A DNA stretch of 64,000 bases from Hydractinia symbiolongicarpus (lineage: Eukaryota; Cnidaria; Hydrozoa; Anthoathecata; Hydractiniidae). The stretch's first letter is position 1. The number at the start of each line of letters is the position of its first letter. Shown one piece after another: positions 12,814 to 60,540 of the stretch. Under the pieces are notes generated by a model. The model made no database searches. It was not told the DNA's origin and saw only the letters and a list, made by a program, of their open reading frames with translations. The stretch is taken from positions 18,972,001-19,036,000 of the forward strand of contig NC_079876.1 of assembly GCF_029227915.1 (NCBI RefSeq). The letters are read 5' to 3'. The position numbers and the translations under genes are program-made.

Positions 12814-14186
12814 ATGGCTGGCAAACACACAAATATGACATGGAGCAACAATCTCAGCGAATTGGACGCTGCTAGTGCCTTGGTAATGCTGTTACCAGAT
12901 TACTCAAGACACAACAAACCATTTAGAAAGTGGAGGAGAATCACAAGATTTAGAGCCCTATAGGCGATCTATTGGGGCATTGCAGACGACTCAAACGATG
13001 GAATTCGAAAAAGAGGTTTTCATTGAAGAGGTAAACTTTGTGGTTGGAAAGAATACTTTACACTTTCACACTGTGTGTTATTTAGGTCATTCTACCTGAG
13101 ATTATTTTGATGCGTTTTCCAAGTAACAGGCTGTTTATTCTCGCAACAGATTTGCTCATAAAGAAGATAAACCAAGTATAGCTAAAGTATAATAGACTGG
13201 ATTTTGATAAATTTGAAGTGCACGAATTCAACATTTTTGCTAGGAAAGGGGATATAGTCCATTATTAGCAGTTAGATATTAGCACTTTTTGACAATATAT
13301 CAATATTTGTTAGTTGCTGTTAGCTAGATGTCTTATTATCTTTTGTCAACGATTGTAGGTCCTCTGTCATAAAATTCTTTTTTTAAGATTCGTAAATATC
13401 AATGCATATGGAACACAAGTATTCCTGCTTATAAAGACCGAAACATGAAGATGAATGCTTGGAAAGCTATTGGTTTAGTGTTTGGGAAAGACGGTAAGAA
13501 ACTTTAGTAATTTTTCTACTTTTGTTGTTAGAAATTTGATTATAGTATACTTAGCATGTGTAAACACATAGGTCCTAGCTATTATTTATATGTAATATAG
13601 CACTAACATACACGTATATGTTATATACATATACATATATGTTTTTTTCAGTCACTTATTGTACATAATTTTTCTTAAAAATAACTTTTCTTCTCTTTAG
13701 TTGAATTTTTGAAAAAGGAGTTTAAATATTTAAAAGACAATCTGAAAAAGTGTCTTGATGCAAGAGCGAGGATGACAAAATTAGGTGCTGCAGCATCATC
13801 TTTGCCCACATGGCAGCATTTTGATCAAATGGCATTTTTATACGAAAAAACATCAAATGTGCCTACGATCAGCAACATATTGCCATCAAGCAGTGCTCTT
13901 TCAGTAAACAGAAGTCAGTTAATTCCAACTTTTAGAAACTGATTTCAATGAAACGAATCACCAAAGTCAAACTTACAGCTCTGCAGTAATTAAATTTGAC
14001 TTGCAATCTCCGAACAGATTGTCAAATGAGGGAGGTTTTTCTTTACCGCCATCACCTGCATCGTCAACATTATCGAATAGTAGTAAACGCAAAAAAAAAT
14101 TGTCCACTGAAGGTGATAACAGTGCTAATGCTACCTTACAGCAAATACATAACATCGAAAAGGAGTTAAAGACGCCTGGGGGAAAA
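12814..14186 (+). pseudogene. MADF-domain DNA-binding protein of the Harbinger element
   Basis: Exon 1 starts MAGKHTNMTWSNNLSEL (12814) and runs to a GTAAAC donor near 13031, with one frameshift. Exon 2 (about 13390-13493) follows AAG and gives the first half of the MADF domain (IRKYQCIWNTSIPAYKDR, NAWKAIG), ending at GGTAAGAAA. Exon 3 follows CTCTTTAG at about 13700 and completes MADF (EFLKKEFKYLKDN, LPTWQHFDQMAFL), then a Ser-rich tail. A second frameshift near 13925 moves the tail to the frame ending KELKTPGGK at 14189. Harbinger elements usually pair a transposase with a Myb/MADF protein that recruits it to the ends. The tail is cut by the nested LINE fragment. Confidence 0.7.
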
Positions 14187-14355
14187 TAATTTACAAAGAG
14201 GTGGCAAGCCACCGCAATGATGAACTCAACCTGTTAGGTCTTTGGAAATAAGCTAGAGGTTGTACTCCTCTAGAGAAAATGCCTCTAAAAGCACAATTCT
14301 CCCTTTTTACAAGGAATTCATTAAAAAAAATCTAAAAAAAAAAAAGGACAAAACA
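14187..14355 (-). repeat. RLE-USP LINE tail nested in the Harbinger (copy 4)
   Basis: The reverse complement matches 34380-34508 closely: AAAAAGGGAGAATTGTGCTT, AGAGGCATTTTCTCTAGAGG, the AGGAGTACAACCT hairpin, and CCTAACAGGTTGAGTT. About 165 bp long, 5'-truncated, lying between the converging MADF and transposase genes, so it inserted after the Harbinger arrived. Confidence 0.85.
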
Positions 14356-14629
14356 CATTTGATTAAAAAATTGGTCAACTTTTATTTGCACTTGAGCTCG
14401 ATGAGGAATGTATATAAAAAGTATACATAATTGTAGTAACATGTTCTATACACGTTTTGTAAAAGAAACCAGCCTATAAGAAACTTTAGGCTCCAAAGGG
14501 TGACATTGTAAGAAATATTTCAGATTCAAATTTGAAAAAAATCAAAACTCAACCCAATGCTTTGGTTTCTTTTAAAAATGGTGTATATGTTATATCTAAT
14601 CAAGTTTATCTTATCTTTGTAACCATGTC

Positions 14630-15794
14630 CTATTGCCATTCAACAGCTCGCTCTAACATAAAATACTTATTATATTTATCACGAACTGTAGCTGCATTTT
14701 TTGAATAGTTATTGGAAGAAACATGTGTCAAGTCTTGTAACCCCATAATATTTTCGTTTCCTTTTCTCCAATCGTCTGGCACAAAACCATCTTTTGTTTC
14801 CCGATCAACAAAATTGGCTGGACAGTAAATACTTTCATTGTCCTTTAAGGTAACCAAAAAATTATGTAAAGCGACCACGGCTTTGGTTAACGCTACTACT
14901 TTTTCGACTTTAGCGATAATCGGTCTCGGAAAAACTCTGAAACGACTTGTAGCTATACCAAATACATTTTCTACTACTCTTCTTTCTCTTGAAAGTCTGT
15001 AGTTGAATACTCTCTTTTCTGTTGATAAATTCTGAAAGGGATAGGGCTTCATCATATGCGGCTTTAATCCAAACGCGTCATCCGCAACAAAAACGTAGGG
15101 TAATACCCTGTCACTGTTTGGTAATTTAGCCATTGTAGGAATGTTTAAGCGATTTTCTTCAATTGCAAATCCTAAATTACTTTTGAAGTAAACACTACCA
15201 TCGCTTTGCCGTCCCCAATCACCAATATCCACTAGTAAAAATTTGTATTGTGCACTACAAACAGCCATCAGTACAATAAATACTAAAATGTTTTTTGTAG
15301 TTAGAAAAGGCCGAACCAGACCGTGCAGGAGCTTGCATGAGAACATGTTTTCCATCGATCGCTTGGAGAGCGTTAGGAAAATTCCACTTTAATTCAAATT
15401 TGTGGGCTATGCGCTTCCAATCAGTTTCATTGTTTGGAGTTTCCAAATAACCCTTGTCGTGCAAAGCATCCCAAACCGCAAAACATGTTTCGTGAATTAT
15501 TCTCCCAACAACAGCAGGACTCATTCAATAATTTGCAGCAATAGTCACTTCAGCATCACCTGTGACTAGATACCTCATTGTGAGACAAAGCCTTTCATTT
15601 GCACTTATCGCCTCTCTCATTTTTGTTTCACTTTTTGTTATTAAAGGAGCAACCCAAGATAAGAGGGTTTCAAGTTTAGTGGGTGACATACGAAAATACT
15701 GAAAAAAGAGTTGACTGTCACACAATTTCATATCTTGAACGAGAAAATGGAATTCTCCTTTTAGTTTTCGTTCTTGATACGCCGTCTTATCCAA
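14630..15794 (-). pseudogene. Harbinger transposase (DDE_Tnp_4-like), broken
   Basis: Read 5' to 3': 15794-15525 gives the N-terminal domain (GEFHFLVQDMKLCDSQLFF, MREAISANERLCLTMRYL). A TGA at about 15525 replaces one residue, then the same frame continues 15524-15255 with QAIDGKH (first catalytic Asp). A frameshift near 15300 leads to 15355-14630 with LLVDIGDWGRQSDG, VADDAFGL and RRVVENVFGIATSRF, which hold the second Asp and the catalytic Glu. Total about 375 residues, near family length. One nonsense and one frameshift are the only defects I see. Confidence 0.85.
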
Positions 15795-18150: not shown

Positions 18151-18609
18151 TTAAAGCAGATAACGTTTTATACTTGAGTTTTTAGATAGTTATATTTTCA
18201 GCTTCCGTAAAGACGTGCACACTAGCTACCAACAAAATTGGGGACATCATATAGGAGTGTATTTAAGAATGATGTTGATACCGGCGAGAAACAAAATAAC
18301 GAAAAAGAGGGCACTCAGCAAAAATACCATGCATGTGCCTGTGTTTGTTGCTCCATTATGTTCAAACTTTAGTGAAAAGTGCTCGCTGGTGTTTTCATTC
18401 CGTGCTTAGCTCTCGTTGAGGTCGGACGTATCTAAAACGCTCCGGTCTTGGCGCGCTAAGTCGAAGAAAGAAAAAAGAAGACTAAAACTTGAAGAGCTCC
18501 TGTTTTGACAGCTAAGTCCTTTTTGATTTATTATATATTGTACTGCTTTCTTTACTTCATTTATATCTTTTCATTTCTTTAATTTGTTGTTTTGTAAGAT
18601 TTTAAATTA

Positions 18610-20676
18610 TTGTTTTTGTTAATAAATTGTTTTTATCCCAGTCAGTTTTTTATCCATCTATCATCTAATATGGTAGCTTTGCTGTGTTGTGGGTTTCTGC
18701 TGCTCCTTCTGTGTAACATCGTAAGGAAATGGGCTTGCCTCAGATCCTTCAAACATAGTTTTGGAAGAGCACATAACCGTAGAATGATCTCTCTACGACT
18801 TAAAAATAACTTTACTCAGGTAGGAAACCCCACATTTACGCTAAAACTGATTTTTGTGTTCGTTGTATTTTTGAGCAATACAAAACCTTCGTTCAAAAGT
18901 AGCTCACCCAACAACAACGAAATGAGTCGACTAGATAGGAGTTTCTTTTCTATCTCTTCACTTGATGCCTGCAATAGAGTTTCTGAGAGCCAGCTCACTC
19001 TCCAATTAAAACTAATGGCTCTATCAAAACTTAAGCCAAGCAGGCACAAGTATTTCTATTTTTTAATCCTCTTGTCAGGGGACATCTGCCTCAACCCAGG
19101 TCCTGTTAAGTATCCCTGTTCTTCATGCTTAAAACCTGTGGCAAAAACACACAAAGCACTTTCTTGTGACAAGTGTGGATTATGGGCTCATAAAAATTGT
19201 GAGCGTATTTCTGATAAAAAATTTCAACAATTTATGAAGACTCCTGAAGATAAACTGTTTTTGGTTTGCAGTCCCTGTCTTTCTCGTAATTTGCCCTTTG
19301 CTAATGAGGAGTCATTTGGTGACGAAATTCCGGACAACATCAATATTACTATTGATGAAAACTTTGATTTTGAGGCAATCAGAAATGGGAAGGGCTTAAA
19401 AATGGCCCATCTCAACATTAATGGTCTGTCATCAAAACTAGACTATGTTAAACTTCTGCTACATCAAACAAAACTTGATGTATTTTACATCTGTGAAACC
19501 AAAATTGATGACACCATCACTGACAATGACGTTAAAATTGATGGCTATGTTTGTTATAGGAATGATCGGAATAGACGAGGTGGGGGTGTTCTAATTTTTG
19601 TTAATGAAAACTTGGATAGCCACCTTTTGAAACACCCTTACTTCGAAAATGTTGAATCACTATGGGTGAAAGTGTGCCTGAAAAAAACTAAACCTATTTA
19701 CGTGTGTGGGGTTTACAGGAGGTAGTGATTTGCAGGGTACCGAAAACCTGTGTACTCATTTTAAACAGTGTTTTAACAAGCTCCCAAAAGAAAAAGAAGT
19801 TTTTATCTTGGGAGATTTTAACTGTAACATCCTTTCAAAATATGCTCTTTCCTCCAAAATAAAGGAATTATGCTCCACTCTTTTCCTAAAACAACATATT
19901 ACGGAGCCAACTCGTGTTACTGAAAATAGTAGCACTCATATAGACTTGATACTTTCTAACAGTTCTTGTATTTCTAAAACTGGTGTCATGGATTTAGGCA
20001 TCAGTGATCACAATTTAGTTTATGTGATCAGAAAATTCAAAAGGCTAAAATTTGAACCTAAAACATGCAAGGTTCGTAGCTACAAGAACTTCAGTGAAGA
20101 GGCCTTTCTGAAGGACCTCAGGAATTTAGACTGGTCATATTTTAATAATTATGATGACCTTGATGAAGCATGTGAGAAACTGAATAAAAATGTCAAAAAG
20201 TGGCTGACAAACATGCCCCTTTCAAAACACATAGATTTTCTGGCCGTGTTGAGGCATGGGTCACTGATGAATTAATAATAGCCATCAAAGAAAGAGACTT
20301 CTTGAAACGGAAAGCATCAAATACAAAATCCATCATAGACTGGGAAGCTGTCAAACAAAAAGGGAACCAGGTAATAGGTCTCAAAAATCGACTTAAAAAC
20401 GAGTACTATAATGACGTTTTGCAGGACTGTCAAAAACGGCCAAAACAACTTTGGAAAACCCTAAAAAAACTGGTTCCTGATAAGTCAGGCAATACTACCT
20501 CGATAAAACGAGTAGTCCAAAACGATGGTACAGAAACTTCTCACCCAAAAGAAATTTCCAACACATTCAATTCATTTTTTGTCAGTGTTGGTGCCAAACT
20601 AGCCTCTAAATTTTCTTCTGACACTACTAATGTTAATGCACCTGTTAGCGGACACGATTTTCGGTGGGCGTATTGA
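18610..20676 (+). pseudogene. CR1-type LINE: PHD finger and AP endonuclease part
   Basis: The frame 18610-19725 starts with a very hydrophobic stretch (MVALLCCGFLLLLLCNIV at 18670, the likelier start). At 19081-19104 it has DICLNPGP, a degenerate 2A-like motif. Then comes a PHD-type finger (PCSSCLKPVAKTHKALSCDK, followed by CGLWAHKNC and CSPC). The endonuclease begins at KMAHLNINGLSSKLD (19400) with YICETKIDD and RRGGGVLIFV. A frameshift at about 19715 moves to 19706-20275 (FILGDFNCNIL, ISDHNLVYV, the catalytic Asp and His motifs). A second, near 20205, moves to 20200-20676 (DKHAPFKT, LWKTLKKLVPDK). Family role: nicking the target for target-primed reverse transcription. Confidence 0.8.
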
Positions 20677-22171
20677 GACCAAAAGTGTCGAAAAAATAAT
20701 TACTTCACTAAAACTTAATAAAGCTACAGGCTTGGACGGAATTGGTTCACGATTGCTAAAAGCAGGTTCGTCAGTTTTAAGTATTTATTTATCAAGTCTT
20801 TTCAACAAATCTTTATTTACTGGTTATGTACCTAAATGTTGGAAGACTAAAAGGGTCTCGCCTATTTTAAAAAGTGACAATAAAACAGATCCTACTAATT
20901 ATCGGCCTATCTCCATTTTGCCAATTCCTATGAAAATTTTTGAAAAGTTAGTGCATGAGCAAATGTCTTATTTTATTTCTGAGCACAACTTCCTGAATGA
21001 CAGACAGTCCGGATTTCGAAAACTCTTTTCCACAGAAACTGCAGTAGTCGATGTCTCTGATTTTATTCTTACTGAGCTCGACCAACATAACTTTGTTTGT
21101 GCTGTGCTCATTGACCTTAAAAACGCTTTTGACACTGTTGATCATAAAATTTTGTTAAAAAAACTATGGTGTTTTGGCATCAGAGATGCTGCCTTTGACT
21201 GGTTCGAGTCCTACTTAACGGGCCGAATGCAGCTGACTCTTGTAAACGACACAGGATCAGATCTGCTTCATGAAGACGCTTTTGGTGTGCCGCAGGGATC
21301 TGTGTTGGGGCCCCTGCTCTTTCTTTTGTATATTGATGACTTAAAATCTGTCATCAATTCAAACTACCACCATCTATATGCAGATGATACAATAATTATT
21401 TCGTCTCATAAAAACTTGGATACCCTTGTCTCCCAGGTCAAGTTAGAACTTTCGCAAGTCGACCTCTGGCTGAATAATAACAAAATGACTATTAATAGGG
21501 ACAAAACTGAAACAATCTTTTTCGGCAACCACAGCCAGTTAAAAAAAGTTGAGAACAAAACTATCAACTATATGGGTATTCCTTTGAAGAGGAGCGAAAA
21601 AGTTAAATATCTTGGGGTAACATTTGATCAAAAAATGCAATGGGAAAAGCACATTAATGACATAAATAGAAAAATACTAATTAAATATTCTAAAATTAGA
21701 ACCATTGCATCCTGTTTAACACCTCACACAAAAAACCTTTTAATTACTGTACTTGTCATGCCATATTTCAACTACTGCTCCTCGGCATGGGCTTGTGCCA
21801 CCCAAGGTAGATTGGGAAAACTAGAAAAACGATTAAAATGTGTCCGTACCTTTCTTGGGAAAGAGAGGGAATATTCAATGAATAATTTACTCATCAAAAA
21901 CGATGCCATATTAGTTTTCAAAGCCATGAATCATATTGCTCCTGATTACATGCGCTCAAAATTCTTTTTGACAAAAAACTGTCATAATCATCAAACAAGA
22001 GGAGCTTTAAAAAACAGGTTCACACTTCCCTTGGTCAACACGGAATTTGGCAAAAAAGCCTTCCCATTTAGAGCTGCAAAAGTGTGGAATAATCTTCCAG
22101 ACCAAGTGACCTGTGATGGAAGTCTACTTTCGTTTAAGACTTCCATCTCTAATGTATTTGGCAAATTCTAA
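20630..22171 (+). CDS. CR1-type LINE reverse transcriptase (3' part of ORF2)
   Basis: A 513-codon uninterrupted frame, joined to the upstream endonuclease frame by a frameshift near 20665. RT blocks are all visible: LKLNKATGLDGIGSRLLKAG, TNYRPISILPIPMKIFEK, FVCAVLIDLKNAFDTVDH (motif A Asp), GVPQGSVLGPLLFLLYIDDL (motif B), HLYADDTIII (motif C, both Asp present), then MTINRDKTETIFFG and the thumb. The C-terminal connection domain ends at NVFGKF. The catalytic residues are intact, so this half could still encode a working polymerase domain. Belongs with the element at 18600-22390. Confidence 0.9.
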   Translation: MLMHLLADTIFGGRIETKSVEKIITSLKLNKATGLDGIGSRLLKAGSSVLSIYLSSLFNKSLFTGYVPKCWKTKRVSPILKSDNKTDPTNYRPISILPIPMKIFEKLVHEQMSYFISEHNFLNDRQSGFRKLFSTETAVVDVSDFILTELDQHNFVCAVLIDLKNAFDTVDHKILLKKLWCFGIRDAAFDWFESYLTGRMQLTLVNDTGSDLLHEDAFGVPQGSVLGPLLFLLYIDDLKSVINSNYHHLYADDTIIISSHKNLDTLVSQVKLELSQVDLWLNNNKMTINRDKTETIFFGNHSQLKKVENKTINYMGIPLKRSEKVKYLGVTFDQKMQWEKHINDINRKILIKYSKIRTIASCLTPHTKNLLITVLVMPYFNYCSSAWACATQGRLGKLEKRLKCVRTFLGKEREYSMNNLLIKNDAILVFKAMNHIAPDYMRSKFFLTKNCHNHQTRGALKNRFTLPLVNTEFGKKAFPFRAAKVWNNLPDQVTCDGSLLSFKTSISNVFGKF

Positions 22172-28017: not shown

Positions 28018-29211
28018 ACAAAGAGTGATTGCAAGATCCAATGCGTGATGTACCATTGCCCTTATTGGAAGTTTTACCATTACCTCCTAAGCAGGCTAAA
28101 GCCTTTAATACACCACCTTTTTACATTCCATGAATTTCAACAAGTTCTTCAGTCTCGTCGCAACGGCTCTGCGCCAGGTATCAATATGATGCCATATGAG
28201 GTTTATAAATATTGCCCAAAAACTGCTTCTTTCTTATTTAATACATTAAAGTCATGTCTTAAACAGTCCTGTTTTCCTTTGCAGTGGCGTGTTCCATCTG
28301 AGGTTTTTATCCCTAAATGCAAGCTTCCCGAACCATCCTGCATAAGGGATTATAGACCAATAGCTTTATTAAATGTGGCAGGTAAACTATTCTGTAGCCT
28401 AATCTTGAAACGTTTAGAGACTCACATCATAAAAAATAATAATTTCGTCAACAAACGTATTCAGAAAGGTTGTATGGAAAAGGTTCCTGGTTGTTGGGAG
28501 CATATATCCCTAATTTGGTCGGCATTAAAATCTGCCAAGACTGACAAAGCTGTTTATGCTATATGGCTGAATGTAGCTAATGCATACCCTTCAGTTCCGC
28601 ACAAACTTATCTTCTTTGCTTTAGAACGTTATGGTGTATCATCTTTCTGGATAGACCTTATTTCTTAATAAGGTCTATCTCGAGTATCTATTAAAGCTTT
28701 GTTATGGTGGTTTATGGAGTAAATCCTTTTTACTCTCTTCTCCATCAGGGTAACAATTCTTTCACTGCCACAATGTCTAACTTCCTTTTGTATAGGGGCA
28801 ACCTACAACACTCTTCCCTCTCCAACCAATCTTGTGAGATGGGGAATTGAGAAAGACAAAAGTTGCACTCTGTGCAAGAAACCATCCTCAAATATCTCTC
28901 ACATATTGGGTGCCTGTAGGACCTCCCTTACGCAGGGTAGATACACATTCCGTCATGATTCGGTTTTAATAGTTTTGGTTAAGACATTAAAGAGTTTTTG
29001 CTATCATATGAACCTCTTAAGGTTTCCAAGTGCAACAAAATTAATTTCATTCTGGCCGGCCAATCACCATCTAAGAAGAGACATACAAAGTGCCCAGGCC
29101 TTCTTCACCTTGCTTCTGATTGGAAAATACTGTCAGATTTAGATTCCGTTTTAGTTGTTCCACCATACATTGAAATAACACAACTACGCCCAGACGTGTT
29201 ATTAATATCCA
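28018..29211 (+). pseudogene. RLE-LINE reverse transcriptase, CCHC knuckle and start of endonuclease
   Basis: A 1-nt excess in a T5 run at about 28120 separates the linker (VLPLPPKQAKAFNTPPF) from the RT frame 28045-28668: GSAPGINMMPYEVYK, SCIRDYRPIALLNVAGKLF, and motif A as WLNVANAYPSVPH, with Asn where relatives have the catalytic Asp. After FALERYGVSSFWIDLIS and a short palm piece, the catalytic YxDD region is missing. The text resumes at 28810 with the thumb (LPSPTNLVRWGIEKDKS), the knuckle CTLCKKPSSNISHILGAC (CX2CX8HX4C), and RYTFRHDSVLIVLVKTL. The endonuclease begins at ITQLRPDVLLIS, where the inserted element starts. This copy cannot encode an active RT. Confidence 0.8.
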
Positions 29212-29274
29212 CAGGGGCGGATACAGGATTTTTTTCTCCTTAGGCGGATTTGCGAAGCGAAGCGAAGCGAAGCC

Positions 29275-29309
29275 CACGCGCAATTTTTGCGTAGCAAAAA
29301 TTGCGCGTG
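29275..29309. repeat. Perfect hairpin, 16-bp arms
   Basis: CACGCGCAATTTTTGC, loop GTA, then the exact reverse complement. Preceded by four GAAGC repeats. Lies 63 bp inside the CAGGGGCGG element end. Confidence 0.9.
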
Positions 29310-29869
29310 ATAAAACAGCTGGGGGTCTTGGGGGGCGCTGTAAGCCCCAGAAGTGGGGTCTGGGGCGAAACCCCAGAAGCTTTAGCTTATTTATCTATTT
29401 CAGCACTCAAAAATGCAGCAGACAGGACCTTCACATGTCCATTTCTTATATGTTATTGGAAAAAAAAACAACCATAAAATTCATAAATAAAAGCCAAATA
29501 ATGTTTGCAGAAAAATTAAGGCTAAAATTAGCCAGCCAGCAAAATTTCTTCTTTCTTCCAGATTCACATCCAGATAAATGAAATCCAAAAATAACATTTT
29601 TTAAAGATTAGAGGATTAAATTAATAATCCAGTCAAAATCTTCTTTCTTCATTCAAAATCTTCTTTCTTCTTTCTTCCAGCTTGCACATCAGGTAATATA
29701 ACCAACTATGAACAAAATGAATCTGTCATGAAATGAGTCAAATTGATCAATTGTCAAAACCAACCAATGAATAAATAAATAAACAACAATCAAAACTGAA
29801 AATTTTAAACTAAATTTCAGTACACCAGGTCAACATGAAGCATAAAAAAACATACTCCCTTATATACCA

Positions 29870-30005
29870 ACTTACTTACTTACTTCCCTTACCTACTTCC
29901 CTTACCTACTTACTATACCTACTTCCCTTACCTACTTCCCTTACCTACTTACTATACCTACTTCCCTTGCTTACCTACTTTCCTTACCTACTTCCCTTAC
30001 CTACT
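29870..30005. repeat. TTACCTACTTCC-type pyrimidine array
   Basis: About ten units alternating CTTACCTACTTCC and CTTACTATACCTA. The 73-codon Tyr/Leu/Pro frame through it is an artefact. Confidence 0.85.
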
Positions 30006-30501
30006 TACTATTATCATTGCATTAGGGGAATACTCGCACCCACCAGGCTGACTTAAGACAAGTATTATCATTGCAGCTAGCTGTTTTGTTACCTTAACTT
30101 AAAGTATAACCGTCTTTAGACAAGTATTATCATTGCAGCTAGCTGTTTTGTTACCTTATTAACTGAATATTATTTATACTACTATCATGGATGTATACAG
30201 AATTTATGAAAATAGCCTAAATTTTATCAATCACATCTAAAAAATTTAACAATCAGATGAAAAGAAAAAGGGCGAGGGGAGGGGGGAGAGAGAGAAAAAG
30301 AGCAGAGAGGTAAAAAAGATAAAGGGGTGGGGGGGTAACATGGTAAGTACTATCTATTAACATTTCTTTATCATTAGTTATATATCTCAAAACATGTCAT
30401 GTCTTAAAATTTTAGTCTTCTGTTATCAATGGAAAATTTATTTATAACTTCATTTATATCAACGTTTATTTCTTTATGGATGTGGAGAAGAGCTAAGCCA
30501 T

Positions 30502-31675
30502 TTAGTCTATCGTTAGACATAGTACTGCGGTTATAGCAGGTAATTCATATGTTTTAACTATAGGTTTTGTTAAGAAATTAAGTTTTGTCTGTAATTTACC
30601 ACCTACACACATATTACCGTCAGTAAATACTTTTTTAGGAAAACATAATTTAAGTGATTGATCAGTCTTTCGTTTTAAGGAAGAATGAACGAGAGGCACG
30701 AAATGGTTGGACTGAAATTTTGAAGATAACATAAGGCCTTCATAACAAAACATTATGTGTAGATCAGCCTTCATTGAAACATGCTTACGGGGAATTATTT
30801 TTTGGTTCATACAAACCTTAAACTTTTCCTCTCCGATATCAGGGTAATATGAGAATATAATTCTCCCTGTAACTGAGGACAAAGCTAAAAGGCAAAGGAA
30901 ACTTGACCAGTTTTTGTCATTTAAATTTAAGACAGCTTCCTCTTTTATAAGCTCTTCCCCCTCTTTATTGCTGTCACAAGCAACATGGGAAACACAGAAA
31001 AATAGAATATTTTTCAGAGAACTGAAAGAACCTCTCTGCTCTTGAAAGATGGAAGAAAATAGAGGATGATTGGAATAAAAATTTGGGAAGAGAAAAAGTT
31101 CCAACGATACCAGAAGTCGTAGCAAGTCCACCAACATATTGTTACTTCCCAAACACAAGGATGCTGAACTGTATAAACAATTTCCAGAAGCTTCAGATCT
31201 ACAAAAGTGAACATAAAAAATTTGTTCACTTCACTCTACTGCAAATCTACAACAAGAATAACAGCTGGCTCTATTATTGTCATTAAATAGTCTCGATGAC
31301 CCAAATAGAAACTTTTTGTTTATTGTAGTGAACCCCCTTTTGTTTATTGTTTAAAAGCTTAATAGCGCTTTGTCACCACAATACAATTAATTTATTTTTA
31401 AACATTCCTTAGGGATTATCAACAAAAGTAAAAATAGATAGTTACCTCAAAGCGACGAATGCTTTCTCTTTGGCATACCCAGGAATAAAATGTTCAACAC
31501 TGAAATTTCTGCTTAACAACTTTTTCTCAATCTTTCTCCAATGATCTAATGTTCCAAAATCAGGAAACTCTGTTATTTTATCTTTCAATATCTTATAAAG
31601 ACTTTTACATTCGCAAATATCATTGCTTTTTACAGCAAGCACAACCCGATCCCGCAAGCTCCCATCAGAAGACAT
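30502..31675 (-). CDS. OTU/vertnin-like cysteine protease, two exons
   Basis: Exon 1 is 31675-31446 (MSSDGSLRDRVVLAVKSNDI to the GAG/GTAACT donor). Exon 2 is 31198-30502, after TTTTGTAG. Lengths 230 and 697 nt sum to 309 codons exactly, an uninterrupted 308-residue protein. The join creates ALRSEASGNCLYSSASLCLG, the OTU-type nucleophile motif (xGNCLY/F). Downstream come KNWSSFLCLLALSSVTGRII, then NHFVPLV, the expected catalytic His region. Known role of such domains: cleavage of ubiquitin-like modifiers; vertnin-type relatives may be inactive. It is the only gene in its transposon and looks intact. Substrate unknown. Confidence 0.65.
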
Positions 31676-31835
31676 GTTGGATCAGAAAGAACTTCAGAAT
31701 TGCAGTTGGCCGAAGCTGGCCGAACCCATTAAACAGACCGGCTACCGCGAGGCAATAACAATAGGAAGAGTAAATTATTCCTACGCACCCATCCCCTAAT
31801 ATCAATCTTTCTTTCACCGTAAATTTCGACTAAAG

Positions 31836-31990
31836 AGAGTCCAAAAGTCCACACTCCGGCGAGATTCTTTTTACGTCACAAATTCTTTTGTTTTAACCAG
31901 AGTCCAAAAGTCCACACCTCGGCGAGATTTTTCTCGACGTCATAATTCTTTTGTGTTTCTTTTGTTTAAGAGAGTCCAAAAGTCCACACC
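31836..31990. repeat. AGAGTCCAAAAGTCCACAC repeats, three units
   Basis: Units start at 31836, 31899 and 31971 (63 and 72 bp apart), each followed by YCGGCGAG or YCGGCAGC. One unit lies in reverse orientation at about 44838-44865. Confidence 0.85.
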
Positions 31991-32328
31991 TCGGCAGCCG
32001 CCGAAGTCGACTGTTTTTACGGCAGAAAACAAAGGAATCGAGAGAAACAAAGTCAGCGAAATGCGGCAAAATGTAGTTCGACTACCGTAAGAACCATAGT
32101 ACTTCGGCAAAGCACATCGAAGGAGAGTCGAGCCTCGGCAAACACTCCTGAGTGGAGATAAGAATATTACCTCGGATCCTGGGCGCAAAGGAATCTTATT
32201 AAACGCTTATAATAAAAATTATGCGTTGCTTTAAATCAATTTCTATATTTAGATACACATGATTTTCTCATTGGCAAAATTTCTCCTTAGGCGAGTGCCG
32301 AAGTGGCTGAAGTCTAAATCCGCCCCTG

Positions 32329-32592
32329 ATCCAGTTCTTCCAAAACTGTAACTATGGTAAAACTGACTGTCCATGTGAAGAGAACACGGAATATTGGCAC
32401 AAATGAAAGCTTAACAAATATTCTTCATTTTGTTATGCTATGAAAAACAATGGATGGATCGTGCATTTCTTTGCCATTGAGGTGGGTGCAAGGGGTTTCT
32501 GTTCAGAATCAGTAAGGACCTGTTTTCGTCGCCTTGGTTTCCCTAACAAGCCTTTACGTTCCCTATTAAAATCCCTAACTTTTACTTCATGA
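32329..32592 (+). pseudogene. RLE-LINE: second half of the restriction-like endonuclease
   Basis: Continues the PD-(D/E)xK-type domain interrupted by the insertion: TVTMVKLTV, then after a 1-nt frameshift CEENTEYW, later NNGWIVHFFAIEVGARGF (conserved Glu) and RRLGFPNKPLRSLLKSL. A stop (TGA at 32590) overlaps an ATG (32589) that opens the next frame. That frame starts SASFYIWMSRNSTTW, the usual end of this domain, so one more 1-nt shift separates endonuclease from USP. Family role: nicking the target site. Confidence 0.75.
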
Positions 32593-33951
32593 GTGCTTCT
32601 TTTTACATCTGGATGTCTCGAAATTCTACCACTTGGGTTGAGCCTGAAAAGACCCCAATCATTCCTGAAGTTTCTTCTGTTACAAATATGGAATGTAAGA
32701 AATCAAAAACCCTTGAGAAATCTTCCGAAAGTCACACAAAATCTTGTAAAATCAAAACACCCGAAAAACCTGCTACAAGGTCTTACCAAACAACAGTTGC
32801 ATTGCCATCTAACCCTAATTTTAGGAATAGCGGTCTAAAAAACTTGGGAAACACATGTTATGCAAACTCCATCTCACAATGTTTTTATAACCTTCCAAAA
32901 GTTAAAGAAGCCATTTCTGTCAGCAAAACAACCTCAAAGTTAAGCGAAGCGAAATTTTGTTTCTGCTGGTAGTTACCCCACAGCAAAGAAGAAGAAACCT
33001 CCTCCAATAAGCATAACCAAAGAGTTAATGCTTACAAACAGTGGAATACAAAATAAGGGTAACACTTGCTTTGAAATTTCTATTCTGTAATGTTTAGACT
33101 CCCATGTACAATTCCATGTAGCCCTCTCGGCAGGAAATCCTTCCTTGTCACCTCTTGCTTCAGCTTGCTCGAATGTTTTCCAACAATTATCATCTTTAAA
33201 AGTCCCAGTTTTTGTAGGTGTTCTTCAAAGTTTGGCTGTTTCTAGAAGTCCAGTTGATCCCTCCCATTTTTTGCGTGCTATGAAACATCATATCTCAGTT
33301 GCGAAGGGAATTGCATTTAATATCTTTGCTTAGCACGACGTCCCCGAGGTTCCTGGATATCTCCTACCTGGTCTGTCATTAGACTTTCCATTTCTTCCAA
33401 GTCTTTTTAGTATTGGCATCAAGACATCAACCACTTGCAATTCATGTCATATTACCAGCTCCTCAGAAGTTATAGCACCATGCATCCAACTTTCTCTGCA
33501 CCCTACGTTACAATCTTCCTTAGATAATTTCTTCGAAAGCGAGGAGTTGTCAGACACCAATGCCTACTTCTGCCATGTTTGCAACGCTCATCAAACTGCT
33601 CTAGTTGAAAACGAGGTAGTGTCGTGCGGTTCCCATCTCATTTTACAGCTAAAACGTTTTGCCAGTGCCAACGGCCTTGTGTCAAAAATTGCCTCTTGTA
33701 TTACTGCGTACCCTGGTACCCTTTCCATACCTTTTACCGTAAATGGAGAAGTGAAATTTCGTAAAAATTTCCAATTAAGGGCTATTATCAACCATTGCGG
33801 CAACTTAAATAATGGTCACTACACAACCATAGCCTTCGACCAAATGGTTCACAGGTGGATACATCGCAACGATAGAGCAGTAATTTTCTGTGATGACCGC
33901 CTTATTAACAGTCACAAGTCATATGTTTTCTTTTTAGAAGAGCTGAGGTAA
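32589..33951 (+). pseudogene. Ubiquitin-specific protease (USP) domain of the RLE-LINE
   Basis: Linker with Lys/Thr/Pro-rich sequence, then a USP Cys box SGLKNLGNTCYANSISQCF (32829). A second Cys box, SGIQNKGNTCFEISIL then a stop (33040), introduces the longer domain: SACSNVFQQLSSLKVPVFVG, a zinc-ribbon pair (TTCNSC at about 33425, FCHVC at 33567), HLILQLKRF, and the His box NHCGNLNNGHYTTIAF with WIHRNDRAV. It ends SYVFFLEELR-stop at 33951. The order matches UCH/USP deubiquitinases (catalytic Cys, His, Asp/Asn). Two stops and several shifts make this copy dead. The same C-terminus and stop are found in copy 2 at 40.7 kb. Confidence 0.8.
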
Positions 33952-34510
33952 GAATATTTTAACCAGAATGAGTCAGCAAGGGGGCTTGACTACACTCAGT
34001 CTTGTCTTTGGAGAGTGACGACTCCACTTATTACCCAAGTCAAAAATGAAAACAAAAGCAAATAAAAAATAAGTTAGCAAGGGGGTTTGATCATACAAGT
34101 TCTTGTCTTTGGAGAGTGACGACTCCACTTATTACCTGAGTTAAAATCAAAGAATAGCACAGTTGAACAGAAAGTGGTCAGAGTTTACTTTAGGAAGATA
34201 GGGATGTTTAATTTCTGCTGATGACCGTCGCGGACCTCTTCGAGGTGACCCAGCTAGACATCCAGGGTACTTAGATTCAGAAATATGGGTCGAAACCTAC
34301 CTGCCCTTGGTTAATGTTTTGTTCTTTTTTTCAAATGTGTTGTCCTTTTTATTTTTTTTATATTTTTTTTAATTAATTCCTTGTAAAAAGGGAGAATTGT
34401 GCTTTTAGAGGCATTTTCTCTAGAGGAGTACAACCTCTAGCTTGTTTCCAAAGACCTAACAGGTTGAGTTCTTTGCGGTGACTTGCTACCTCCTTGTAAA
34501 TTATTTTCTT
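33952..34510 (+). repeat. RLE-USP LINE 3' UTR with 120-bp tandem units and terminal hairpin
   Basis: Two units of GTCAGCAAGGGGGTTTGACT.. to GAGTGACGACTCCACTTATT (33970 and 34085), then CTGCTGATGACCGTCGCGGA, GGTGACCCAGCTAGACAT, and near the end the hairpin CTAGAGGAGTACAACCTCTAG (34419-34439). The family tail CTTGTAAATTATTTTC ends at about 34509. The same blocks occur at 40800-41395, 10437-10925 (reverse) and 14187-14355 (reverse). Confidence 0.85.
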
Positions 34511-39356: not shown

Positions 39357-40199
39357 ATTATGAATGCACACATAATTTTATAGTTTCAAATTATACCCAG
39401 AAGTTTACAGTAAAGAATATCTTAACGAAAACCCAAACCAAAGTGGTCACAGCAAAAGACAAATCAAATACGTATGACTAAAAGTGTCCAACTTTAAAGC
39501 CGGTTCACACAAAATACAAAGAAATTTTGTCTACAAATTCTATCCTCAAAATAAACCTCCCGATGTGGAAATTATGAGATCAGGAATTTTTTCGTTTTTC
39601 TGAAAGTTGTTCTGATTAAAAGCAAAAAATGTGATTTATTTAAAGATTTTCAGTACGTTTTTACAATTGCATGATTGCACCGCTTGTCAGAATTTAAAAA
39701 GCCTTCGTAGTAGCTGGTTTAAAATATTGCTGGAGCCAATATATTTTGTGCTTGATTAGTTATAAGTGAAGTATTCAGCATTAGACAGGTAGTACGCAAG
39801 GGGTCAATAGGTTGAGTTGTGGGATGGCATGAAAAACATGCCTGCTGAGCCCGCAATAAAGTTGGCAGCCACAACCCTATTGTTATCTGTCGCACCCACC
39901 GAGCTTAGGCCGGCCCGTGGGATTCATTTTGGACTACAAAAAATCCATATCTTTTTAACCATGATTTTCCAAATGTTATTGACCTAGACCGTATTAGGAC
40001 TACCCGTTCGGATATCGATTTTAATATAATTAGTTGCTCTTCACCACCGATCACCATTGACATTGCGTCTTCAAATAAAACTTCCTTGAAAAATTGGAAT
40101 TTAAAACCGTGTAAAGTTGTTTTGCAAGATGTTCTTGCTGCCGGTTCCACTGAAAAGTCTAGCTGCTGAATGGTAACCTGGATAAAACCCACAGTGTTC
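39357..40199. other. No gene recognised
   Basis: A 116-codon minus frame (39905-40255) is present. Its 3' part overlaps the LINE linker on +, so I do not call it. Nothing else identifiable. Confidence 0.45.
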
Positions 40200-41395
40200 T
40201 TTCTCAGCAACCAGCAGATATTGAAAAGCTTGAGAAAATAGAGAGAAAACAACAAATTTCATGGCCAATATCCGCTGACACAGGAGCTTGGAGTGCTCTT
40301 AACAATGCTCTTTTGCACAACCTGTTAGGATCTCACCCTCTGTTATAAAGAATGCAAATTCTAAAATTCCACAATTTACCATCATGCTTCCCTTTTCTTT
40401 GGATTTAAGGCTCAACCCACACATGGCCCATCTGGTTTAAACAGACGTGCCTTTTAGTCCATCTCGTTGGTAAAAGAGAAAAACTCTCTTCTTCAACAAC
40501 TGGAAAACGTGTAGGACTTAATGCAGAGGGAACATTTACAAACTTCGCTAGGCAATGTTAAATTAAGGTTAACAACATTACCCCGGGGAGAACGGAACAG
40601 AAAAAGCGATGGAAAATTCGCAATGCAAACCGTGCATTTGGTAAGAATCCTTATCAGGCTGCTAAAGTCTATGGTAAGTGGTTTCATTGCAACGACAGAG
40701 CAGTGGTCCCTTGCAAACAAAGCTTGCTTAATGGTGTACAACCTTACATCCTTTTCCTTGAAGAGCTTAGGTAAATTGCAGTCAGCACCACAATTCCGGC
40801 TTATGTCAGCAAGGGGGGTTGACTATTCTCATTTTTTTTTTTTTTTTTTTTTTAATTTTTTTTGTAGTCTTGTCTTCGGAGAGTGATAACTCCACTTATT
40901 ACCCCAGTGTAAATAAAAGCGAAAAATAAAAAAAAAGTAAAAAATGACGCCAGCAAGGGGGTTTGACTGTACCAGGTCCTATCTTTGAAGAGTGACGACT
41001 CCACTTATTACCCAGTCAAAAAGGAAATAACAAAACAAAAAACAAAATAAAAATTATGTCAGCAAGGGGGTTTGACTGCACTGGTGTTATCTTTGGAAAG
41101 TGACGACTCCACTTCTTACCCCAGTCACACAAGGTTGTACAGAGTAGGACAGATGAAAAGTTATGGATAAAAGAAATGTCTAGTTTCTGCTAAAGACTGT
41201 TCGCAGACCTCTTTTGAGGTGACTCAGCTAGACATTTTGGGTACCTTGGTTCAGGAATATGAGTCTAAACCCTTGTACCTTTACAGAAGTCCCGTCCTAC
41301 TCTTTTTTTAGAGGAGCAAAACCTCTAGAATTTAAATTTTAAGACTTAAGTGGTCCAGTTTATCATTGTGAGTGGACTTTGTAATTTTCATTCTT
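40200..41395 (+). mobile_element. RLE-USP LINE copy 2, internally deleted
   Basis: The 5' part encodes the pre-RT linker in shifting frames (ISWPISADTGAWSALNNALL at about 40258; KKRWKIRNANRAFGKNPYQA at about 40597). Directly after it comes the USP C-terminus (WFHCNDRAVVPCKQSLLNGV then PYILFLEELR-stop, about 40678-40773), then the family 3' UTR with three GTCAGCAAGGGG units, the TAGAGGAGCAAAACCTCTA hairpin (41311-41329) and the tail TGGTCCAGTTTATCATTGTG. RT, endonuclease and most of USP are deleted, but the two ends prove RT linker and USP belong to one transcript unit. Confidence 0.75.
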
Positions 41396-45487: not shown

Positions 45488-47602
45488 TCAGTGAATAGAC
45501 AAGCATTTTTGTAAAGTCTCCACTGCAGTGTTTATTTCTGATTTTGTTGGCTTGCTCACTGGCTCATCAAACACCTCGACGACATCGGCATTTTCATCAT
45601 GCTCCTCGTCATTCTCATCTGTACTTGGCCGTACCGACTCAAGGATTTCTTCATCAGTCACGGGATTTTCGATTGTGGTCAAATCTTGGTCAATATCGAC
45701 AACATCACGGGCCGAGAGATCAGCAGGAATAATGGCATCGTCAATGGCACGCAGTTGTTTGAGATCTTTCTCCAGTTGTTTAAATGGATTATCAATATCA
45801 TCAGTTGCATTCTGTTGAGCTTTCTTGGAAATCTTTGATTTCTTGAAGCAATTTACGATGGTCTCTTTCTTCACTTTGTCCCACGACGAAACAAGTATTT
45901 GAAGAGCACGCAGAATTGAAACTTTTGGAAGATCTTTGCCTTTTTCTAGGTTTTGAATCATCATGTTGACCAATTTTTGGCGATAAAGAGACTTAAGACA
46001 TCTTATGACACCTTGGTCCATCGGTTGTGACACAGAAGTTGTATTTGGAGGTAAGAAAATCAATTTAATGTTGGACAGTCCACCGACATCAGAGTGAGCG
46101 GGAAAATTATCGATGATCAAGACTATCTTTCGACCTTCTTTTAGAAACATTGCATTGATTTCTCGCACCCACTCTTCAAAAAGAGAGCTGTCCATCCAAC
46201 TCTTCTTCTGCGCTCTGTACCTGCAGGGTAGGGATGTTACATTTTTGAAGCACCTTGGTTTCTTCGATTTACCAATCACAAACATTGGTAGTTTATCTCC
46301 GACAGCATTGGCAGCTGCAAGCCCGGTAATTCGGACTTTGCTATTTTTACCCACAGAGCATTTTTCGGATTTGTAGTGATACGTTTTATTTGGTAAGCAT
46401 TGGTAGAAGAGACCGAATTCGTCGGCATTGTAAATATCTTCTAGTTTGTAGTTAGTTAATAATGTTGGTAAAGTGGTTTCAAACCAAGATGCTATCACAT
46501 CAGGTTGAACAGAATTGCTTTCACCAACGACCGTCTTGAACGTTACATTGTGCCTGAAATAGAAAATAAAACAAATACCGACTTGTATAAAAGATTTATT
46601 GTTAACCTGTTCGTGCATTTTTTCGAATACGAATGTTCGAATTTCAATTCGAATGTTTTTAAAAATTCTTGTGTGAACACCCTGTGAACATTATCATTAT
46701 TACTTGTGCATGGCAACAAGGAAAAGCAAACCAGGAGAAAAAGGAGAAGATGGATCTTGCAAAAATGATAATTGATCAAAATTTAATCAATGTTGTAATG
46801 ATAAAAGAATTTGAATTGGCTTCACATGTTAAGGGGTTCCACGTTTATAAAGCATTGTGGACTCCAAAAAATGGGGAGACTTTACAATGCGAAGGAGAGC
46901 CTAATAATCCCGTTGACAAATATGCTGTGTGTGTCAAGAAAGAAAACAAGATAGTTGGACATTTACCACTTGGAAAATCTGGAAAATTTGCTAAAACAAT
47001 ATTTTATTTCCTCAGAGCTGATGAATTAAGCTCGTGCAAAGTAATTGTGACTGGAAAACCAGTTAATTTGGGAGATGGTGAAGGCATGCAAGTGCCATGC
47101 AATTTGACATTTATTGGAACGGAAAAGTGCATCAAGATACTCAAATAACATATTTAGTTTACGTTAGTCTTTTTAAGATTTTAATATCAAAATAAAACCA
47201 ATTCGAAAAAAAGAGATTTAATATTCTTACCTTTTTTTTCCATTTACCAAGCCAACCGTCTGAAGCTTTGAAATCTTCTACTCCAAGTGCATAGCTTTTA
47301 GCTTTCTCCTTTAGTATTGTCCCATCGATTGGTATGTTTTTGCTTCGTTGTGAAACAAACCATTTGAACACGACAAGATCTACTTCTGAGAATTTACCAT
47401 CTCTGATCTTTCTTTTCTTGCCCGAAGACTTTTTGAGAGCAGAAAAAAGTTTTTCCTTATTGGCCAGCCAAGTTGATATCGTGTTTTTAGGCACCCCGTA
47501 CTTTTTATCAATATCTTTATTTGAAATACCTTTTTCCAATTCTTTTAATGCTTGGCATTTTTCTGCCAAAGTTTTTACAACGAGCTTTCTTTTCGGTGGC
47601 AT
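45488..47602 (-). CDS. pogo/Tigger transposase, two exons
   Basis: Exon 1 (47602-47231): MPPKRKLVVKTLAEKCQALK, a CENP-B/psq helix-turn-helix (NKDIDKKYGVPKNTISTW), then the CENPB-type second HTH to GWLGKWKKK at a GTAAG donor. Exon 2 (46553-45488) follows TTTCTATTTCAG: HNVTFKTVVGESNSVQ, then DDE_1 motifs NADEFGLFY (D1), VLIIDNFPAHS (D2), LPPNTTSVSQPMDQGV (D3), a C-terminal helix region and an acidic tail. About 490 residues, normal for the family. The phase across the junction is off by 1 nt: an A8 run at the end of exon 1 would need to be A7 to give the usual KKRHN join. This may be a mutation or a base-call error. Confidence 0.85.
46669..47148 (+). CDS. HIRAN-domain protein inside the pogo intron
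   Basis: An intact 159-codon frame, with the likelier start at 46750 (MDLAKMIIDQ). From about residue 45: FELASHVKGFHVYKALW, EPNNPVDKYAVCVKKENKIV, GHLPLGKSGKFAKTIFYFL, then IVTGKPVNLGDGEGMQVPCN. This is the HIRAN pattern of a beta-barrel with the conserved 'E.xNP.DxxAV.V......GHLP' segment. HIRAN domains bind DNA ends or stalled forks in HLTF/RAD5-type proteins and occur alone in some small eukaryotic proteins. It lies wholly within the 677-bp transposase intron, antisense to it. No promoter identified. Confidence 0.7.
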   Translation: MCEHPVNIIIITCAWQQGKANQEKKEKMDLAKMIIDQNLINVVMIKEFELASHVKGFHVYKALWTPKNGETLQCEGEPNNPVDKYAVCVKKENKIVGHLPLGKSGKFAKTIFYFLRADELSSCKVIVTGKPVNLGDGEGMQVPCNLTFIGTEKCIKILK

Positions 47603-48512: not shown

Positions 48513-50199
48513 TCAGTTAGTTTTATAAAATAGCTTTACCATCTCAATTAAATTTTTACAAAAATCTTCATCATACAAAATGTCATCAATAACAAAGCCA
48601 TGCGAAGTCCAAACCATAAAAAAACATTTTTTCAAATTTGTTGCATACATTTGCAATTGACACTGCGTGTAATATTTGTGTGATTTTTTTAACACCTTCT
48701 TTCCATTCCTTTCAACCAGAAAATCAAGTACCACATCTGTTGGGGACTTGTGGCTTATTGAAAAGGGGCACTTTATTTCCAGACAGCTAGGCGAACAGCA
48801 GCAACAAGTCACCAACCCATCAGGACTAGCACCAACAAACTTCACGTCACCGTCAATAAATAAGCCACAAGACCGCACTTCTACATTTTTATGCTCTTTC
48901 TTTATTTCTTCTTTAAATGCAGCTAACGCAACAGGCTCCATTTCTCTTCCATATTTCAGTGCAGGTATATTTGGGTTGAAAAACACAGACCCAGACACTT
49001 TCTGAAAAAGGGACCAGAGGTTAACATTAAGATTCCCTTTTTTAAACTTTTTCATTTTAGTTAATACCTCATGTGCTTTTGATGCAGTCACAATATCCTT
49101 CCGAAATAAATACCATGCCTGATTTTCTGATTGCCCACAAGTTATCTCTTCTATTTTTTTTTCTGGCTTCTAATGTCATTTGGCTATCTAGTTTACTGAG
49201 AAACGTGATCTTGTTATCACTAGATGAAATCATTTCATTAACAGATAATACATTTTTTTGTTCTGGAACAGTTTTAACAATCTCTCTCATAAAGTCTATC
49301 TTTGGTGTTGGAACAGATGTAAACAATACACTACATGGCAGAGTGTCTTTCAGCGCAGTTACAATGTTTTGAAGCTCAGGCTTTATTTTACATGTAGCAA
49401 GAGGATTATAATTTCTTTTCGGAGTTGCTACCAGCGGTCTCTTTTGCTTTTTAGATTTTTTCATTTCATCTCTGTTTAAAACCAAATTTATCATTTTCTG
49501 TGGTCTGACTTCTTTTCGGTTAGGTAGCCATTCACAAGCTTTGGCTGTGCATGATGGATTTGTCAGCCCACATGTTACTGCAGCATCTACTCGAAACAAA
49601 AGTGCAGCAATATGGTTGCATGTCTCAGACATTCCTGCCATGCAGGTGCAGTGTGCTGACATAATCCGATTACTTTCTCCTTTCAGAACGCATACCCATA
49701 GTTTATGAGGTGGATCATTTAATCGTTCTGAAGGCCTACAATCTCCTTTTAAAAAGCAGTACTTTGAATCTTCGTCAATCGGATGGTACATTATTGGTCC
49801 TAGCCAACCATTTGTAAAATAGCTATATGCTTTGCTTGTTTTGTAATCGTTTAGGTCGTCACTCCTCCGTGTGCTAGGAGTAAAGGTTAAATAATTAAAA
49901 ATACTTCCATATGTAATCATTGGCCAAAACGATACACCGTCTTCCTCCGCTAACCATCCAGAAGTAATGTCCATTGGGTCAGGTATAACACCATCTTCAA
50001 CTAATAATTTGCTCACATACTCTTCGTTTAACTGCTCTTCTACCTGCGCTGCAGTTTTTACCAGCTTTACATTATTCTCACTAGCAGAAAATACCCTTGC
50101 CACCAACTCACATTTCCTTCCAGACACCTTTAAACCCCGCATTCTTAAATATTTTTTTAATTCTTCAACTTTCATCTTGCTAATCATATCAAACTCCAT
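48513..50199 (-). pseudogene. SAP-SWIM-YqaJ exonuclease protein (one frameshift at A9)
   Basis: Frame 50199-49069 begins with a SAP motif (VEELKKYLRMRGLKVSGRK, residues about 10-30, DNA binding) and a SWIM zinc finger (HCTCMAGMSETCNHIAALLF, about residue 184). The frame then runs off at an A9 run (T9 on + at 49154-49162). Removing one base would continue it into 49091-48513, through GQSENQAWYLFRKDIVTASK. That part is a YqaJ/lambda-exonuclease domain: ALKYGREMEPVAL, VGASPDGLV and CLEIKCPFS (Asp, Glu-x-Lys active site) and YYTQCQLQMY. Total about 560 residues. Family role: 5'-3' DNA exonuclease. Such SAP-SWIM-YqaJ proteins are multicopy in cnidarians as I recall. I found no element ends. Confidence 0.75.
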
Positions 50200-51366
50200 T
50201 GTAAATGAGCGTGTTTACTTCTTCTTGTCCCTCCTATACTAGTTACTAGTCTTTTCCTCCGACGCGGTTTCATAATGGTAGCCGGATGGGGTTGATTGGT
50301 GTATTACTTTTAACTAAAAATGTAAACGCTCATTATACACAAAAAATATATCTATCTTATAGACCGAATCGTGTAGCATAGCTAACTAAAATTACCCGTA
50401 CATTTGAAACTGGCCTCTGCTTTCGAACTTGCAAATTCTTTATTATTAATAAAGTCTTTTTTCTGTCACGAATACGTTTTATATATAAGGATTCTTATGG
50501 TGTAAATTAAAGCTTTACATAATAGAATCACCAACTGTAAAGTTTCAGCCTTAGTCTGTGTCACTTGCCGTGGCCTACGAGCGTATTATAATACAAGAGT
50601 TATACGGGAAGTTACACTGTAGTTGAATTTGCTTTAATTATTTTCACAACCTATAGCGTAACCAATCATATTGCACAAGGCGCCAAATAAGTTTTAAATA
50701 AAAATACTTATTGTCCGCTGTTTTAAGTGTTTAACCCGTATGCTTATAGGAAATCTGTGTATGTTGTTATTTGCTCTCAAAGTTTATTTCTTTCTTTCGA
50801 ACCGATGTTAAAAACAGTGAATACTCGTTTTTTGTAAAGAAACACGAGGTTCATATTAAAAATGCTATCAAGTAGCACGTTATCAAAGGTTTATACAAGT
50901 TAGGCATTTCGGCTGACTAGAAAGATGACTTTTTAAATAGACTGTCTAACGCCTTTTTTCTTCTTTTTGCTTTTGCATTTTTCTATATCGTCGTAGGTTC
51001 ATGATTTTCCCAAGCAGCCTTTCCACGCCAAATCTTTCTTCAAATACTTCAAGTTCACAATCTTCTTTGCACATTTTCCTAAGACGTGCGCCAGTTTCGT
51101 GAAAATGTTATCTACCAACACCTTCAGTTTTCTTTCAATAACTTCTTTATCGCATATCGAATACTCCATACGTATTCCTGTACTGCTGCTAACATTACTT
51201 TCTGAAAAACTTCAAGAAATGCTTGCTGCACCAACTACACTGATGCCGTCAGGAGCAGGATTGTTTACTTCGTGTTGTGCGGCTTCTCGCTTAGCGACTT
51301 CTTTTTTGATCGAATACCTTACTTTGTCAAGCAAGATCTTTTCGTGTTAATCACGAAAAGACCTTG
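50200..51366. other. No gene recognised
   Basis: GTAAATGAGCGTGTTTAC (50202-50219) faces GTAAACGCTCATTATAC (50320-50336) as an imperfect inverted repeat upstream of the YqaJ gene. The 83-codon + frame at 51099 has no domain. Confidence 0.45.
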
Positions 51367-60333: not shown

Positions 60334-60540
60334 AAAGCCAGGAAGTTGCGTATCCTTGTACTTTAGATTTCCATTTTTACGTGTAACTAAGATAGATTTG
60401 CACTTTCCCAGGGTTTCCGTATTAATATAATTAGAACGTAAAAATGTACAAAGGAATTAATATTTACAAGGCTTCAACATAATCTAACAAGTATGTAAAT
60501 CAAAGAAGGTCTCATTTACATTAAAGCATCTTCAACTTAC

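Follow-up and report, generated by a model that had tools for sequence, protein, structure and literature searches.

A predicted ubiquitin-specific protease at the C-terminus of an R2-like LINE lineage in Hydractinia symbiolongicarpus

Can a retrotransposon encode, in one chain with its reverse transcriptase, an enzyme that removes ubiquitin, and what might the element gain from it? The question is raised by positions 28102-34510 of a 64-kb stretch of the Hydractinia symbiolongicarpus genome (the window, to which all positions below refer), which hold one copy, in pieces, of an R2-like long interspersed nuclear element (LINE). A preliminary description of the window, made from its letters, had placed a ubiquitin-specific protease (USP) behind the restriction-like endonuclease (RLE) of this element, and that architecture was borne out by intact single open reading frames (ORFs) in the genome and by 125 of 187 related proteins. 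Almost certainly, therefore, an R2-like lineage of RLE-type LINEs encodes one protein composed of a reverse transcriptase (RT), a CCHC zinc knuckle, an RLE, a low-confidence linker and a USP. Taken whole, this architecture together with the explanation that we favor, protection of the element's own protein, has in our estimate a probability of about 0.6.

The fused frame in the Hydractinia genome

The genome searched for copies comprises 480.9 Mb. With the protein P0003 as query, 39 matches were obtained (best 33 of 3589 candidates scored), 10 of which are uninterrupted frames of 1345-1426 codons running from before the RT to the end of the USP, and three more span RT to USP with one stop each. 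Whether a single ORF covers RT, RLE and USP had been left by the preliminary description as a check, and these 10 frames answer it in the affirmative. A query made of the C-terminal 205 residues of the USP in the window returned at least 151 genomic matches, the window included (best 150 of 1146 candidates scored). These results bear on chance juxtaposition, by which the USP would belong to a host gene or pseudogene that happens to follow a dead LINE. Taken by itself, the window copy, whose halves are separated by frameshifts and a 3.1-kb insert, would permit such an accident, but that reading is opposed by the intact fused ORFs elsewhere, by the adjoining of RLE and USP in six of the seven other best-hit loci L002-L008 (L006 has only 18 RLE residues and L007 none), by their presence in one ORF at 13 of the 14 loci that had been selected for their long frames (L009 overlaps L003, and L021 overlaps L002), and by a second window copy that consists of a USP tail and a like 3' untranslated region (UTR) behind a LINE N-terminus. 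We consider the probability of an accident negligible; a host USP lying downstream by chance, the case that had been named as fatal to the fusion, is ruled out by the intact fused ORFs and the 151 genomic matches to the USP half.

The window contains a dead, mosaic copy of one family, while intact copies, nearly identical to one another, belong to a different family of this genome. Two copies of this intact family are 99.7% identical over 5661 bp and differ in their flanks, which suggests that the family moved recently. Judged by eye, its 3' flanks are all different in seven copies, and the eighth copy is followed by another unit. Thus, no fixed target such as the 28S ribosomal DNA (rDNA) site was seen in those seven flanks, whereas R2 proper inserts at one 28S rDNA site, and no target duplications were obvious by eye in the flanks inspected. 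As a separate observation, the family's own 3'-end sequence precedes the unit in all eight copies (L023, L024, L025-L035; contigs C2, C7, C11, C13, C14), with 111 to 753 bases of this repeat seen and the fetched stretch beginning inside the repeat in three. The unit starts directly behind the repeat in six of the eight, the other two stretches ending a few bases on, and at L024 the 480-base upstream repeat is 100% identical to that copy's own 3' end. An upstream 3'-end repeat was not found at L036 and L037, which belong to another family. The arrangement is of a pseudo-long terminal repeat (LTR) or head-to-tail kind, reminiscent of Penelope or HeT-A.

The copy in the window lies on the plus strand throughout. 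Its RT fragment (28102-28771, with IRDYRPIALLNV at 28342-28377) matched residues 274-489 of P0003 by tblastn, and its Pfam RVT_1 match (E 1.2e-5) is below the Pfam cut-off. Since the alignment then jumps from P0003 residue 489 to 842, and the part that is gone (residues ~490-841) includes the FMDD site (P0003 537-540), the window RT is dead; the RT that had been described here is consequently present in part. The linker that follows (28753-28998; zf-RVT E 2.7e-6; 76% identity to P0001) carries the CX2CX8HX4C knuckle CTLCKKPSSNISHILGAC at 28864-28917, as had been stated. The end of the linker and the first part of the RLE (28986-29211; 90% to P0001), with RPDVLLIS at 29187-29210, run into a 3117-bp DNA transposon insert (29212-32328) that went unmentioned in the preliminary description, although the order of RLE motifs given there (RPDVLL, KLTV, GARGF) was correct. 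The insert has inverted ends (CAGGGGCGGAT.../...ATCCGCCCCTG), from which we take it to be hAT-like, and is flanked by a target duplication of 5 bp (ATCCA; 29207-29211 and 32329-32333). Joining the flanks across it restores the RLE reading, RPDVLLISSSSKTVTMVKLTV, colinear with P0001, so the insert splits the RLE, whose second part (KLTV, PCEENTEYWH, and EVGARGF at 32479-32499) occupies 32334-32589 with one frameshift and 93% identity to P0001 over 32368-32589.

A single open frame, 32547-32969, joins the C-terminal tail of the RLE, SASFYIWMSRNSTTW (32592-32636), and the linker (tail and linker 32590-32831, from the P0001 alignment and the ORF) to the first USP Cys box, GLKNLGNTCYANS (32832-32870). 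This Cys box and the residues after it (32832-32951; 87% to P0001) are followed by a mosaic piece with approximate edges (32955-33198; 85% to P0002) that resembles a second subfamily and carries a Cys box of its own, GIQNKGNTCF (33043-33072), which is damaged and gives the window USP two such boxes. Among 41 genomic matches of the mosaic stretch (best 40 of 192 candidates scored), one spans both subfamily types, the window's own, and the mosaic probably arose through template switching or gene conversion. The rest of the USP (33199-33951) is read in a different frame, which closes with the stop codon 33949-33951, and contains HDVPE (33334-33348), the zinc ribbon motifs TTCNSCH (33430-33450) and YFCHVC (33565-33582), LILQLKRF (33637-33660), the His box INHCGNLNNGHYTT (33787-33828) and WIHRNDRAV (33856-33882). 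Pfam UCH matches the domain in two pieces (E 8.1e-8 and, for the part after the mosaic, 1.2e-14), in accord with the Cys box, zinc ribbon and His box that had been recognized.

The 3' UTR (33952-34510, end approximate) includes two ~100-bp repeats (33967-34146), and its stretch 34325-34508 was found again on the minus strand at 14182-14370. Of this UTR, described earlier as family-specific, the stretch 33967-34297 recurs at 40943-41271, with aligned pieces 73-87% alike, behind the USP tail of the second copy. The latter (39838-41271, plus strand) joins a LINE N-terminus to a USP end (KWFHCNDRAV...EELR, then a stop), its middle having been lost by an internal deletion (~40668). Since it retains both the USP end and a like 3' UTR, the two travel with the LINE. 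A third, degenerate USP tail, from His box to end, lies at 62260-62421 (plus strand; 55.6% to P0003 1380-1433).

Domain conservation and ancestry of the protease

The family has the hallmarks of an RLE-type LINE: a LINE-type RT with FxDD, a CCHC knuckle ahead of the endonuclease (residues C879, C882, H891 and C896 invariant in 24 aligned rows) and, downstream of the knuckle, a PD-(D/E)XK-like endonuclease (P988, D989, E1004 and K1020 invariant in 24 rows). The knuckle of RLE-type LINEs is given as CX2-3CX7-8HX4C in the accessible portion of PMC5678591. The RLE of relatives without a USP had a weak profile match to the R2 RLE. A fold match was also obtained, by way of the R2 C-terminus. R2 (R2Bm, R2Tg) stops at roughly the point where the family here passes into its linker and on to the USP. 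R2 proper also has N-terminal zinc finger(s) and Myb, whereas Pfam found no N-terminal zinc finger in P0003; zf-C2H2 is annotated (precomputed) in the relatives P0138, P0151 and P0153. Pfam likewise found no Ulp1 protease in P0003, whose protease is the C-terminal UCH.

High conservation of catalytic residues was found in the 118 complete USP domains of LINEs, a count that leaves out 24 partial ones. All 118 have the nucleophile Cys as well as the Asp; present are also the His and the oxyanion Asn in 117 each, and the zinc cysteines in 114, 118, 118 and 118; Cys box, His box and Asp/Asn are complete in 117, P0029 being without the His. This conservation does not stem from recent ancestry, because the mean identity of these USPs (66 of the 118) is only 28%. 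The predicted fold is a canonical USP fold with a zinc ribbon. Distances between USPs agree with those between RT-RLE regions (Spearman 0.74; 0 of 500 permutations), and these comparisons show that the predicted USP co-varies with the RT and retains its catalytic residues. Between Hydractinia families, dN is 0.37-0.87 for the USP (silent sites saturated), 0.28-0.40 for the RT and 0.25-0.53 for the RLE; these values accord in part with the residue counts, in that the USP is constrained, though less so than the RT.

The 187 relatives were drawn from two protein searches, the second contributing the best 120 of its 336 matches, and were assigned to classes by profiles built from 24 of them: 125 have RT, RLE and USP, 13 RLE and USP, 36 RT and RLE, 10 a USP alone and 3 an RT alone. 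Among the relatives listed, USP-bearing LINEs have one named source, Hydractinia (P0001, P0020), if two RT-RLE-USP proteins assigned to a Pseudomonadales metagenome-assembled genome (P0074, P0166) are set apart; these two most likely represent eukaryotic contamination in a bacterial bin. A further search added relatives, many without a USP, the named ones from fish, clam, ctenophore and amphioxus. No relative was found in scans of viral_contigs and genome_contigs (two peptide patterns each) or among phages, and a viral or bacterial origin of the fusion was dropped on that ground.

The RT-RLE tree (FastTree; 165 LINE rows, with two R2 sequences as sole outgroup) leaves out 86 of 251 proteins with a short RT or none. 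All 75 USP-bearing rows fell inside one 108-row clade (SH-like support 100), and a USP is absent from all 57 rows outside it, of which 44 stop behind the RLE and 13 are uninformative, being cut short, without an RLE match or with another tail. Also outside the clade lie P0184 from Limanda (fish), P0198 from Mercenaria (clam) and P0200 from Bolinopsis (ctenophore), which share the same RT-RLE (36-37% to P0003 or P0165) and stop shortly after the RLE. Within the clade, 21 rows end after the RLE and 12 are uninformative; 13 of the 21 sit in one group of 15, whose other two members are cut short, and three, whose models may be truncated, fall within the main USP-bearing half: P0118, P0195 and P0092, a Hydractinia gene model that stops 20 residues past its RLE. 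Copies without anything behind the endonuclease, which the preliminary description had named as a refutation, thus exist in related lineages both outside and inside the clade, and the USP is accordingly a module that was gained and sometimes lost, rather than a fixed part of RLE LINEs. For the labelled rows, parsimony requires seven changes of USP presence, and the tree fits one gain followed by losses. P0171 (1289 aa), also in the RT clade, has after its RLE a 497-residue tail with no match to the USP profile or to a Pfam family.

The USP trees include nine non-transposon USPs and are weak at their deep forks; in the more careful one, 34 of 35 named LINE USPs (from the 118) were entered, P0123 having failed the coverage limit. 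In neither tree do the LINE USPs occupy one side of a branch (three changes each), as P0104 and also P0103, which we count as cellular on its domain content, fall among them. P0104 (1656 aa) is a Helitron (Helitron_like_N and PIF1 helicase) with a C-terminal USP that grouped with 20 main LINE USPs (support 97/97) at no more than 32% identity, and by its predicted domains it is a second transposon class carrying the module. The approximately unbiased (AU) test gave p 0.061 for LINE USPs alone as one clade and p 0.316 for LINE and Helitron USPs together, whose common origin is thus not rejected. We read these trees as one early capture followed by losses and exchange; a single capture is neither rejected by them nor shown, and capture may have happened repeatedly.

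What a tethered deubiquitinase might do

For R2, RNA binding, target cutting and reverse transcription are established. By analogy, the LINE protein would bind its own RNA, its RLE would cut target DNA, and target-primed reverse transcription would follow. Host E3 ligases may attach ubiquitin to this protein or its ribonucleoprotein (RNP); the tethered USP would strip it, allowing escape from the proteasome, and the protein would last long enough to enter the nucleus, where it would cut the target and copy its RNA. The USP would in that case be a counter-defence acting in cis. In L1, host factors bring about the ubiquitination and degradation of both ORF2p and ORF1p, according to the available parts of PMC10716122 and PMC5570191, and so a deubiquitinase in the same chain would be well placed for self-protection. 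That the predicted deubiquitinase protects the element's own protein we hold at even odds.

Several points weigh against self-protection. The L1 evidence is mammalian and from an APE-type LINE, whereas the family here is RLE-type. Related lineages without a USP are multi-copy (the P0165 cluster has 65 members), so such elements do not in general require it. When the two domains are compared over one pair of families, dN of the USP is roughly double that of the RT (0.53-0.54 vs 0.28-0.29), which would be compatible with conflict but also with weaker constraint. In the young pair L036/L037, USP omega is 0.95 (dN 0.015, dS 0.016) against 0.46 for the RT and 0.35 for the RLE, and in the window family omega is mixed, 0.31-1.03 (28 pairs, 8 partly dead copies).

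The main competing explanation is that the USP acts on target-site chromatin or repair proteins (ubiquitinated H2A/H2B, PCNA or FANCD2), so that, placed beside the endonuclease, it would open chromatin or steer repair in second-strand synthesis. The tethering of the USP beside the RLE through a low-confidence linker (residues 862-904 of P0058) would suit such a role, the fold matches include USP1 in complex with ubiquitin-FANCD2, and Bao et al. 2010, in the text of PMC2836005 available, suggest a repair role for the OTU and Ulp1 domains of transposases. We regard this explanation as rather unlikely. Less probable still, and in our view improbable, is that the USP, instead of protecting its own protein, broadly dampens host ubiquitin-dependent immunity in trans, through innate signalling or the turnover of silencing factors. 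The complete catalytic residues and canonical fold would serve that purpose too, but the USP is encoded in one chain with the RT, and LINE proteins are usually scarce.

Returning to self-protection, a broader proposal can be put forward tentatively, as possible rather than probable: a widespread animal LINE lineage may counter ubiquitin-based restriction by a tethered USP that was captured once and traded with Helitrons, and the recently active Hydractinia family may be copied head-to-tail with LTR-like ends derived from its own 3' end. If self-protection is true, the USP could let a jumping gene resist the cell's disposal machinery.

Known systems and neighbouring features

In the part of PMC4640811 available, NeSL and Utopia elements are RLE LINEs that, like the present family, carry a cysteine protease acting in the ubiquitin or a ubiquitin-like pathway, in agreement with the Ulp1-type protease named for them in the preliminary description; theirs is an N-terminal Ulp1, present in some families, those of nematodes, whereas here a C19 USP is C-terminal. 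A deubiquitinase-type module on a mobile-element enzyme is also found, as an OTU, Ulp1 or C19 domain, in Ginger1, in Helitrons and in a transposase of T. vaginalis, but in the available text of PMC2836005 these are DNA transposons and not RLE LINEs. The BLAG-specific domain of cockroach R2-like LINEs was considered as a precedent and set aside, as it is not a USP in the accessible portion of PMC7650587. Among the matches listed from open-access full-text literature (Repbase and subscription papers lying outside that search) no LINE with a USP was found, and an earlier description, in a database or elsewhere, is possible.

Host ligases that mark LINE proteins are known, and a LINE encoding the predicted reverse enzyme was not found in the literature searched. 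The fusion offers a handle on ubiquitin as a general retrotransposon defence, as one catalytic Cys can be changed and retrotransposition read out, and near-identical open-frame copies in a colonial hydroid make such testing practical. In addition, the C-terminus of an R2-like protein can accommodate a further domain, fused there naturally, a point that bears on R2-type proteins as insertion tools.

Other features were detected in the window. A second LINE, of the APE type, lies on the plus strand at 18598-22168, with a strong RT match and weak PHD and endonuclease/exonuclease/phosphatase matches, both below the Pfam cut-off. On the minus strand are a SAP-domain ORF beside a YqaJ-type exonuclease ORF (48516-50214), perhaps part of a DNA transposon; a 1503-codon open frame (55948-60456) with no Pfam match above cut-off; and DDE transposase ORFs at 14633-15388 (DDE_Tnp_4) and 45491-46690 (DDE_1).

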